This document shows, piece after piece, positions 13,628-18,300 of a DNA stretch of 64,000 bases; position 1 is the stretch's first letter, and each line of letters opens with the position of its first letter. This DNA is from Hypomesus transpacificus (lineage: Eukaryota > Chordata > Actinopteri > Osmeriformes > Osmeridae): positions 1 through 64,000 of the forward strand of contig NW_025813700.1 in assembly GCF_021917145.1 (NCBI RefSeq), read 5' to 3'. The notes under the pieces are model-generated. The model saw only the letters and a program-made list of their open reading frames with translations, made no database searches and was not told where the DNA came from. A program made the translations under genes and the position numbers.

Positions 13628-14975
13628 TCACAGCTCATCCCGGGGTGGAGGGTCCTGGAGCCAGCGTGCGTACACACCCAGAGGGTCGCTGTTCCAGTGC
13701 TTGTGGAAGGAGATGGACTGCTGGTGGGACAGGAGCTCTCTGGCGTAGTCGTCCGGTCGTGCCTGGAACAAACCGGTTCAGACTGGTGAGTTGAAAAGAG
13801 GCTTTGATCCGACCTAAAGGGCCACAGCACCAGGAGGGGCCACCTGAGATGATTTTGACGGGAAAAGTATTCCAAAAGTAAATCCATAAAACATGTAGCT
13901 TTATATTGTATGTAGGGAGTCAGATGGCTGAGCGGTGAGGGAGTCGGGCTAGTAATCAGAAGGTTGCCGGATCGATTCCCCGTCGTGCCAAAGGACGTTG
14001 TGTCCTTGGGCAAGGCACTTCACCCTACTTGCCTCGGGGGGAATGTCCCTGTACTTACTGTAAGTCGCTCTGGATAAGAGCGTCTGCTAAATGACTAAAT
14101 CTAAATCTATATTATACTGACTGCAGTGCGGGTGACCTACCTGATTGCAGGGGAATTAAAACGATTAAAATCTCATTCTCTGTGTCTCTATGTCTCCCTC
14201 CCGTATCTCTCTCTTTCTCTGTGTCTCTATGTCTCCCTCCCGTATCTCTCTTTCTCTCTCTTACACACACACACACACACATTCCTCTGATCTAGACCAT
14301 AAAAGAATAATGACCCTGAGCCTCAAACTAAGATAAATGCTTAATGAAGGGTTGGGTTCGTATAGTGGTTGACCAGAGGGCTGTGTGTGTGTGTGTGAGT
14401 GTGTTAGTGTGTGTGTGTGTGTAGTCCTCACAGGTGTAACAGATGGCTTTGTGTGTTCTAACAGTATTGTAGTGTTCAAGGCTAAGGAACAGCAACATAT
14501 CTCAAATATATTGCCAAGAAACTGACAATGCAGCTGATTTCACTCATTTAAAAACTGCTGATCCAATTAGGATAAAGAATACAGAATACAGCAAAGGCAG
14601 TCTTTCAAAAACGTCCTTTGGGATGTTGACTATTAATTACTTTAATGTTTGCTACCTTTCACCATTTAATGGATGATTGAATAGAGTGAGACTGGACCTC
14701 CATCATGAAAGTGAAGCGTGTGCAATTCTGACACTTAGTTAGCTGATCACAGAGGCATCGTGTGTTAGTATGTGTGTTGGTGTGTGTGTGTGGGGGGGGG
14801 GGGGGCCCTGCCTGGTGGAACAGAGGGCTGTGTGTGTGTGTGGGGGGGGTCCCTACCTGGTGGAACAGAGGGCTGTGTGTGTGTGTGTGGGGGGGGGGGT
14901 CCCTACCTGGTGGAACAGAGGGCTGTGTGTGTGTGTGTGTGTGTGGGGGGGGTCCCTACCTGGTGGAACAGAGGG

Positions 14976-15008
<33 letters not shown>

Positions 15009-15295
15009 GGGTCCCTACCTGGTGGAACAGAGGGCTGTGTGTGTGTGTGTGTGTGTGGGGGGGGTCCCTACCTGGTGGAACAGAGGGCTGTGTGTGTGTG
15101 TGTGTGGGGGGGGGGTCCCTACCTGGTGGAACAGAGGGCTGTGTGTGTGTGTGTGTGTGTGGGGGGGGTCCCTACCTGGTGGAACAGAGGGCTGTGTGTG
15201 TGTGTGTGTGTGTGGGGGGGGTCCCTACCTGGTGGAACAGAGGGCTGTGTGTGTGTGTGTGTGTGGGGGGGGTCCCTACCTGGTGGAACAGAGGG

Positions 15296-15328
<33 letters not shown>

Positions 15329-18300
15329 GGGTCCCTACCTGGTGGAACAGAGGGCTGTGTGTGTGTGTGTGTGTGTGTGTGGGGGGGGTCCCTACCTGGT
15401 GGAACAGAGGGCTGTGTGTGTGTGTGTGTGTGTGTGTGTGGGGGGGGTCCCTACCTGGTGGAACAGAGGGCTGTGTGTGTGTGTGTGTGTGTGTGGGGGG
15501 TCCCTACCTGGTGGAACAGAGGGCTGTGTGTGGTGGTGATGCCCAGGGAGCTGAGACACATGCCCAGCACCATGTCGTCAGGGGCCTCATCACCGTGGCA
15601 ACCACAGCCCCCTGAAAGCAGCCTGGACACGGCCACTCTGCTCAGCACCATCCTAGACACACACACACACACACACACACACTATTATTATTTACGTTAT
15701 TCCACAGCCTCAGCCCCCTGGGAGACTCACTGTGCTCCACCCCCACACCCCTTGCTCCCCTCCTCCACAGAGACTCACCCCCCACCCCCAGTGGGGTAGC
15801 TGTAGCCGTGGTGACCCAGGCTGTAGCCGTGGTGACCCAGGCTGTAGCCGTACCTCTCACCCAGGCTCACAGCCTCTCCAGCGTCATAGCAACGCAGGAG
15901 CCTGCGGAGCCGGGGTAGACTACACACACATACATACACACACAGATACACAAGCGCACACAGATACACACACACACACACACAATCCAAGGAGAGAAAG
16001 GGGGAAGAATTCATTAAGTTATATGGAAAGTTTGATTAAAAACTCTAATCTTTCATAATCAAGTTCTTATCATCACCATGGTGAGAAAGAGAGAGAAAGG
16101 GAGATAAAGAGAGATAGACAGAGAGAGAAAGGGAGATAAAAAGAGAGAGAGAGATAATAGAATGGTGAGAGTCTTTACTCAGAAGAACTTAGCCCAAGGG
16201 CGTTCAAGACATGGTTCCAGTACCTGATTAGTGTGTCGTCGTCTACGATCAGCAGCCAATCCGCTTTCGGCACAGCACCGCTGAGGAAGCGCTTCAGGAT
16301 AGCGAACGTTTTCCCACAATGCCCTGCAACATTACAGAGATTAAATAAGAGGAAGACGCTGTGGAAAAGAGAGAAAGGAAGAAAGAGAGATACTGCAGAG
16401 AGACAAAGAATCACTACGGAAATGGCCATTCGTGCACATTTTAAAAATAAAACGGTACTAAGATTATGGGTTATGCTAATTATGAATTCCTTACTCTGTC
16501 AAGCCTACAGAGAAATACTTCTTATATATAAAGCAACCTCACCACAGCTACACCAAGTGTGAGGTATTTTCAGACTCTTATCAAAAGCGAAAAACAGCGC
16601 AGGGAGGAATTTGAACCTGCAACCACTGAGCTAAGCCCTCCCACTTTCAGTGAAGTAAGAGTGTGGTTATAAAAGGACAGCATTAACTTCCTGATCTAGT
16701 AAGACATGCTGTAAAAAGGCAGAAAATGTAGAAATAGTGGTTTGTTTTCTACTGAGCTTCAAAAAAAATGGAAAAACCTGAGAATGCCATCTGCAAGGAA
16801 CATTCCAGATTTGTAATTCTGGTAAACAGAAGTTCTGGTCATTTGTTATTCTCCTGGAGGATCCATCCTAGTCGACCATGCAGCTGAATATTCATAAGCC
16901 TTTCAAAACAATGGCCAGTCAATAAACAGGAGTAAACAATTGTTTGGCTTGATGTTTTATGTATCAACATTCACTTGATTTAGCATACATTGTTAACAGA
17001 TGCTGTTCCAAAAAATAACTTTCACCTGTGCTTTTGTTTTCAAACCTACGAAGCTATTTGAATTTAAAAGGAACAGCAAAAGAGAAAGCTCTAGAAACAA
17101 AGAAAGAGAGAGAAATGAGATACCGAGAGAGAGAGACAGAGAGAGATAGAGAGATAGAGAGAGAGAGAGAGAAACAGCCAGAGGGAGAGAAAGAGAGGCA
17201 AGGGAGAAGGAGAGAGGGTTAGGGGGGAGAGAGAGAGACAGAGAGACATAGAGAGAGAGACATAGAGAGAGAGAGAGAGAGACATAGAGAGAGAGAGAGA
17301 GAGACATAGAGAGAGTGAGAGAAATCAGTAGAGAGAATGAAAGAAACAGGTGGGGCGGACGAGAAGCAGAGCGGAAGAGTGACGGAAAAGAATGGGACAG
17401 AAAAATCTCATTTGAGATGAATGAGTAGCTGTAAGTGGATTTGGGCTCGGGAGGGGAAGGTAAGGGAAGGAATGGGAGCCAGCGTCTTCCAAAGGACAGA
17501 GGGGAGAGCAGGTTTCAGGGTTGGGATAAGAACCCCTAAGCCTTACTGCTCCAGTTCCTCTCTGACAGATTTACTGATCAGGCCGGGAACGAGCGCGAGT
17601 TGCCCAGAACTCTACAATAAACGGGTCCGTATGGAGATCAAGCCTCACACACACACACACATCCACACACGCAACCACACACATCCACACACGCAGATGG
17701 GACCGGTCCTGTCTACAGGTACTTCTGAGTCAGGAAGTCTTGTCGAGAGGAGAGCAGGGGGAGGGGGAAGAGAGAAGGGGAGAGAAGAGGGGGGGGGGGG
17801 GTGGAGGAGAGCAGGGGGAGAGAGGAAGGGGGGAGGATAGAAGGGGAGAGAGGAGGGGGGGTGGAGGAGGAGAGCATGGGGAGAGAAGAGGGGGGGGGGG
17901 GTGTAGGAGAGCAGGGGAGAGAGGAGGGGGGGAAGGGTAAAAGGGGAAAGAGGAGAGGGGGGTGGAGGAGAGCAGGGGGAGAGAGAGGAGAGGGGAGGAG
18001 AGAGGAGAGCAGGGGGAGAGAGGAGGGGGGTGGCGAGGATAGAAGGGGAGAGAGGAGGAGGGGGGAGAGAGGAGAGCAGGGGGAGAGAGGAGAGCAGGGG
18101 GAGAGAGGAGAGCAGGGGGGAGAGGCAAAAGAGAGGAGGGGGGGAGAGGAGGAGGAGGAGAAGAGGCGGAAGAGAGAAATGGGAAGGAAGGAGGAGGAGG
18201 AAGAGAGGAGAGCAAGGAGGACGACCAGGGGCCGAGAGCAAAGTCAAGGAGTCTCAGCCGTGAAGGAGTCTCAGCCGTGAAGGAGTCTCAGCCGTGAAGG

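Follow-up and report, generated by a model that had tools for sequence, protein, structure and literature searches.

The penultimate coding exon of the gene b3glctb of the smelt Hypomesus transpacificus ends inside a minisatellite, in which the last 16 bases of the exon, the splice donor, a C run and a CA run are present in 14 head-to-tail copies reaching into the following intron. We found this array in a 64,000-nt stretch of DNA (contig NW_025813700.1 of assembly GCF_021917145.1, positions 1 to 64,000, hereafter the window), and its structure is real and singular within its gene. In our view, it is probably a young minisatellite that arose by tandem duplication over the exon-intron junction and is passively tolerated, with the proximal donor in use.

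The best protein match, P0001 ('beta-1,3-glucosyltransferase-like', Hypomesus transpacificus, 470 amino acids), was 100% identical over its aligned part. From residue 4 onwards it was mapped without a mismatch across 14 exons and 13 GT...AG introns of the minus strand, and the gene is b3glctb by this protein identity. Furthermore, the joined last exons matched PF02434 (Fringe-like, E 3.6e-30) and PDB 12em, a solved beta-1,3-glucosyltransferase (E 2.4e-52), which gives the combination of Fringe-like domain and homology by which B3GLCT is recognised. An earlier sequence-only reading of this DNA (the original prediction) had named the same gene and the same exon junction, and the exact mapping of P0001 bears out both. 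The features of the array and its surroundings, obtained with Tandem Repeats Finder (TRF), motif searches, donor scoring and protein mapping, are as follows; a slash marks the splice junction in the motifs.

13631 to 13762, minus strand: last coding exon (ARPDDY...RDEL), from P0001 mapping
13763 to 15507, minus strand: intron of 1745 nt, 728 nt of it (about two fifths) taken up by the array, from P0001 mapping
14780 to 15523, minus strand: 14-unit minisatellite of core, donor, C run and CA run, from TRF and unit counts, the distal end being counted from unit 14
14806 to 14814, minus strand: most distal donor, the GC donor CAG/GCAGGG
14851 to 15457, minus strand: 12 more GT donors, with first intron bases at 15454, 15395, 15338, 15279, 15228, 15175, 15122, 15071, 15018, 14959, 14906 and 14856
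15502 to 15510, minus strand: donor 1, CAG/GTAGGG, annotated, the intron beginning at 15507, from donor scoring and protein mapping
15508 to 15523, minus strand: the 16 bases that close the exon, CCCTCTGTTCCACCAG, forming the exonic portion of unit 1, from motif search and exact protein mapping
15508 to 15652, minus strand: penultimate coding exon of b3glctb, 145 nt, ending ...THSPLFHQ, from exact P0001 mapping
15524 to 15540, minus strand: exonic CA-rich stretch ATCACCACCACACACAG upstream of the core, encoding I T T T H and including two bases of the S codon
15779 to 15919, minus strand: preceding exon, which carries an in-frame 21-bp tandem duplication, from TRF, P0001 mapping and alignment

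On the minus strand from 15523 to 14780, each unit follows the formula CCCTCTGTTCCACCAG G(T/C)AGGG(A) C(6-14) (AC)(6-14) (n = 14). The exon (15652-15508) ends ...ACCACCACACACAG CCCTCTGTTCCACCAG / GTAGGGACC, after which come a C run and a CA run that closes with CAG. The first bases of the 14 copies of CCCTCTGTTCCACCAG run from 15523 down to 14827, and the spacing from copy to copy is, in order, 53, 59, 57, 59, 51, 53, 53, 51, 53, 59, 53, 50 and 45 nt. The 14-copy array and the homology of every unit to the exon end, both of which had been claimed, were recovered, as exact CCCTCTGTTCCACCAG copies are present in 14 of 14 units and TRF reported an array at 14829-15532 (score 1154, period 53, 13.0 copies, 93% matches) that includes the exon end at 15508. 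Chance or low complexity can be ruled out as its source because of these 14 exact 16-mers and the TRF score and match rate. No further copy of CCCTCTGTTCCACCAG was present elsewhere in the 64-kb window on either strand. The interval originally given, 14787..15652, contains the array but extends over the remainder of the exon as well, up to 15652.

A donor consensus is present in each unit. CAG/GTAGGG occurs in 13 of the 14, and the most distal unit reads CAG/GCAGGG without the following A, so that GT is kept in all but that copy, as had been stated. Among units 1-13, the lengths of the C run (6-14) and of the AC run (6-14 repeats) are the sole variation, and the claim that only run lengths vary holds for these units. 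The invariance of the donors is no evidence of selection on them, since the bases outside the runs are all just as constant throughout units 1-13. Local block expansion was also considered and is unsupported, since like units lay as close or closer in 2188 of 10000 shuffled orders.

The junction of the gene model is the exon-proximal donor 1 (intron 15507-13763), and the acceptor of the intron is an ordinary one outside the array (13763). P0001 thus uses donor 1, which leads to the annotated protein end, as the original prediction had it. Donor 1 defines the normal 145-nt exon, and the 13 further donors would give exons of 198 to 841 nt. Reading past the true donor had been said to meet a stop inside the next unit. 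The stop after ALCSTR is the TAG within the GTAGGG of unit 2; read-through and donors 3-14 meet it, but donor 2 does not, because the TAG lies inside the unit-2 donor and is spliced out. Use of donor 2 would lengthen the exon by 53 nt and shift the reading frame, which then runs past the normal stop (just after 13631) to a stop codon ending at 13507 if the last exon reaches there. With no stop before the normal one, the donor-2 product should escape nonsense-mediated decay. Under the 50-55 nt rule of that process, donor 3 is borderline (ALCSTR stop 55 nt before the junction), and donors 4-14, with the stop 112-639 nt upstream of the junction, are expected to give transcripts that are degraded. 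The view that all distal choices are nonsense therefore stands for these 11 of the 13 further donors, is borderline for donor 3 and does not stand for donor 2, with its frameshifted tail and no early stop.

We aligned the 120 best-scoring homologues of 601 matches, isoforms and close species included. Position 417 was P in 113 of the 120 and position 418 was I or V in 117, and T was found in the smelt only at both. The pair TT at 417-418, within ITTTHS, was thus confined to one of the 120 best homologues, the smelt. No Osmerus or other Hypomesus protein appeared by name among the best 120 of the 601 matches, some of which are nameless. At the nucleotide level, the last 9 bases of ATCACCACCACACACAG, CACACACAG, are common to the exon and the end of the first intronic CA run, and the two sequences diverge beyond them. 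The array and its CA-rich exon end are thus found together in one fish, which leaves two possibilities: a change in the exon seeded the duplication, or a CA run of the array was copied into the exon.

A read-through query for alternative isoforms in a protein collection clustered at 90% returned 61 matches. One of them, P0129, is 100% identical over its match, but it spans the preceding intron into the preceding exon and stops at the end of that exon, and so does not inform on the donors. Of these matches, mostly without a species name, 60 could be aligned: 37 read past the donor, 7 were spliced, 2 were other cases and 14 lacked the motif. In the 37 read-past fragments, the FHQ at this position is followed by a GTN codon, which indicates that the intron is old; a new intron absent from relatives, the mark of intron gain, was not found. 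Thirty-four of the 37 go on for at least 18 residues, 9 begin with VG like the smelt and four have THT or HTH within 15 residues. None of the 37 contained a second FHQ, although a copy in another frame would escape notice. Judged from these translations, the fragments are consistent with one donor in the ancestral state, with CA after it in some cases.

The smelt b gene also has a second paralogue. Teleost protein entries carry a and b names, pointing to two genes, and the smelt a-paralogue is present (P0217). Gene decay was ruled out for the b copy: the model is open across 14 exons and P0001 is no outlier at conserved columns, deviating at 3 of the 179 columns conserved at 95% or more and ranking 27 of 120 (position 417, with P in 94%, falls just below the cut and is therefore outside the 179). 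Two b3glct genes are known in zebrafish as well, and double knockouts developed normally (PMC5604996).

Tandem repeats are frequent around the array. The share covered by TRF arrays is 12.6% for the window and 29.7% for the mapped gene span, and arrays begin within 23 nt downstream of 4 of the 13 donors of the gene, in one case at the first intron base. In the genus, tandem repeats are given as 14.61% for H. nipponensis, compared with 3.26% for stickleback and 5.83% for fugu (PMC12083275). Two neighbours in the gene were recorded. A 16-bp CA-rich array of 6.4 copies (22481-22581) ends at the first intron base beside the exon end at 22582. A 29-bp minisatellite of 18.7 copies (22983-23517) begins 23 nt into an intron and stops short of the exon end; the donor upstream of it is weak (TGTGTGAGG, score 3.8).

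The anatomy of the array, the common 9-base end, the odd exon end of the smelt, the use of the proximal donor in the gene model and the existence of a second paralogue were all observed directly. A duplication mechanism, a proximal preference in living cells and an absence of function are inferred. The duplicated segment probably had matching ends, namely the exonic CA-rich stretch (CACACACAG) and the intronic CA run close to the junction, and later expansion with slippage in the C and CA runs would have led to 14 copies. The proximal donor would win by position, in that it defines the normal 145-nt exon, under exon definition. The setting is a repeat-rich genome and a gene with a second paralogue, which would make small losses cheap. 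We see a passive origin, with tolerance owing to position, as the most economical account.

Several observations weigh against it. Only 1 of the 26 junctions is overlapped on both sides by an array, namely this one, compared with about 8 expected from coverage (29.7% of 26 junctions, by arithmetic and not simulation), and the sole junction-overlapping array may therefore be special rather than typical. Moreover, 13 of the 20 donors scoring at least 8.9 in the gene span, among them donor 1, sit in the array, and none of the other arrays in the gene has at least three donors scoring at least 7 on the transcript strand. The array is therefore not just another intronic repeat. One further array, that at 22481-22581, abuts an exon end exactly. 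RNA structure was rejected as a means of selecting donor 1, as predicted accessibility is alike (0.29 unpaired for donor 1, 0.28-0.33 for all copies) and gives it no edge. Finally, the putative proximal preference is read from one gene model.

An unlikely alternative is a silent ratchet, in which AG/GT units of dual specificity would allow the intron to be removed in unit-sized steps with the same mRNA as the outcome, so that the array would buffer itself against decoys and copy-number change. The original prediction had seen an acceptor-like site in the tract ending CACAG, but this site scored 0.14 in 13 of the 14 units, with 1.64 for the copy of the exon itself, below the 13 authentic acceptors of the gene (1.75-12.45), and was ruled out as main acceptor. 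These scores come from frequency tables and not from MaxEntScan, and within-gene ranks outweigh values. The original prediction had missed that 13 of 14 units read AG/GT and may thus each be a potential acceptor as well as a donor. As an acceptor, the exon end CACCAG/G reached 9.02, a higher score than that of 10 of the 13 authentic acceptors; it ranks first among the 9 AG/GT exon ends of the gene, the other 8 ranging from -6.91 to 7.47. Splicing from donor 1 to a later CACCAG would be silent because CACCAG/GTAGGG, the same exon end, is regenerated in the GT units, and the distances from donor 1 to later units are 53 to 696 nt. AG/GT sites widely serve both ways and introns spliced between them are 8.4-fold enriched in human tandem repeats, but dual-specific sites are underrepresented among annotated splice sites (PMC10809524). 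Against such stepwise removal, a branch-point-like yTnAy motif 14-52 nt upstream was missing in all 14 units by a crude rule that also misses 6 of the 13 authentic acceptors, and a further AG (CACAG) lies 16 nt upstream of CACCAG.

We regard it as similarly improbable that the array is a length-dependent regulator, a role the original prediction had thought possible, in which either copy number or the length of the CA run in unit 1 would set the amount of productive b3glctb mRNA through donor competition and the binding of hnRNP L to the CA runs. The 13 GT donors are identical at the nine scored positions, and donors 4-14 would supply the early stops described above. The AC count of unit 1, which is 11, would also set the class of the donor-2 product: an in-frame insertion results from counts of 7, 10 or 13, the long frameshift from 8, 11 or 14, and a different frameshift with a stop within the last exon from 9, 12 or 15. 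One CA repeat more or less would therefore switch the product among two frameshifts and an insertion. CA runs of 6-14 repeats per unit are a sequence type preferred by hnRNP L and LL (PMC3823766). Nevertheless, the paralogue and the normal zebrafish double knockouts lessen the need for dosage control (PMC5604996), and the invariance spans the whole unit with no sign of selection on the donors specifically.

We also considered, as an unlikely extension of the ratchet, a self-buffering splice cassette. Unit-to-unit splicing would return an identical exon end and the intron would be removable at any copy number; copy number could then increase with hardly any purifying selection against it, and the outcome of leaky donor-2 use would depend solely on the CA length of unit 1. 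If this were true, junction-spanning repeats with an acceptor-like exon end would form a tolerated class and others would be purged. An assembly artefact, either a copy number inflated by the assembler or a chimeric array, is very improbable: the structure was read from a single assembly and run-length errors are possible, but the units differ in run length and are not one repeated block, the array is shorter than 1 kb between flanking exons that both map perfectly, and a quality value of 36.6 is given for a H. transpacificus genome, possibly this assembly (PMC12083275).

Returning to the young, passively tolerated minisatellite that we favour, its kind is already known, and the original prediction overstated how unusual it is. 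Turri, Cuin and Porter reportedly described in 1995 (NAR 23:1854) a minisatellite in human IFI6 (6-16, G1P3) that provides multiple splice donor sites, and its unit is said to be a 12-nt donor-like element starting near an exon end. The b3glctb unit, in contrast, is about 53 nt long, with 16 coding bases, a donor, a C run and a CA run. In both genes a minisatellite overlapping the exon end furnishes many splice donors; the downstream repeat units of IFI6 are reported as used donors (PMC4526556), whereas the downstream copies of b3glctb are predicted donors. Human UBC is an array of AG/GT dual-specific sites with a coding unit of 228 nt, a multiple of 3 (PMC10809524). The two genes share an AG/GT per unit, each copy being a potential donor or acceptor, but only 4 of the 13 unit lengths of b3glctb are multiples of 3, and its annotated intron, instead of joining unit to unit, begins at the first copy and ends at an ordinary acceptor that is not part of the array.

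Intronic CA repeats, such as the CA runs directly downstream of the donor here, are reportedly bound by hnRNP L (Hui et al. 2005); in b3glctb, unlike those repeats, the CA run is part of a unit that multiplies the donor too. In potato RdRp, an intron was gained by tandem duplication over an intron-exon boundary (PMC4974935). The duplicated segment crosses an exon-intron boundary in both cases, but in b3glctb an old intron was lengthened and no new intron is annotated. No counterpart combining a coding exon end, a donor and an acceptor-like AG/GT in one unit was found in the accessible parts of the openly licensed literature.

The array amounts to a natural competition experiment, with 13 GT donors that are identical at nine scored positions and stand 50-59 nt apart behind one exon. 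As the donors are identical and closely spaced, position, more than strength, must decide the choice among them. This bears on the extent to which donor choice is governed by proximity and exon definition, and on silent AG/GT ratcheting. It also illustrates that an exon end can multiply into an intron without the annotated junction moving, while two adjoining codons read T T.

Other observations concern the rest of the gene and the window. The in-frame 21-bp tandem duplication of the preceding exon (15799-15851) gives a stretch of 28 residues in the smelt, compared with 21 in the other 119 of 120 homologues; the 7-residue insertion sits in the Fringe-like catalytic domain and is absent from the smelt a-paralogue. 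The first three residues of P0001 (MGR) are not encoded just upstream of residue 4 at 27018, where an acceptor-like TTTCAG is present, and they must either come from an upstream exon that was not placed or reflect an error of the model. The N-terminus of P0001 as modelled is unlike those of five other sequences shown alongside. A UnaL2 LINE 3' element lies at 14047-14100 in the array-bearing intron, and two others are present in the window (52712-52765 and 28706-28759). Outside the gene, a tRNA-Glu (TTC) gene was located at 40308-40380, and a neighbouring pair of frames contains Peptidase_C98 pieces, which we take to be USPL1. A 111-bp tandem repeat of 2.9 copies (45036-45360) falls in a long minus-strand frame that also holds the start of a Peptidase_C98 (SUMO isopeptidase) domain. 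The repeat reads ...EESDSEVEFICSQ..., presumably resembling a SUMO-interacting motif.

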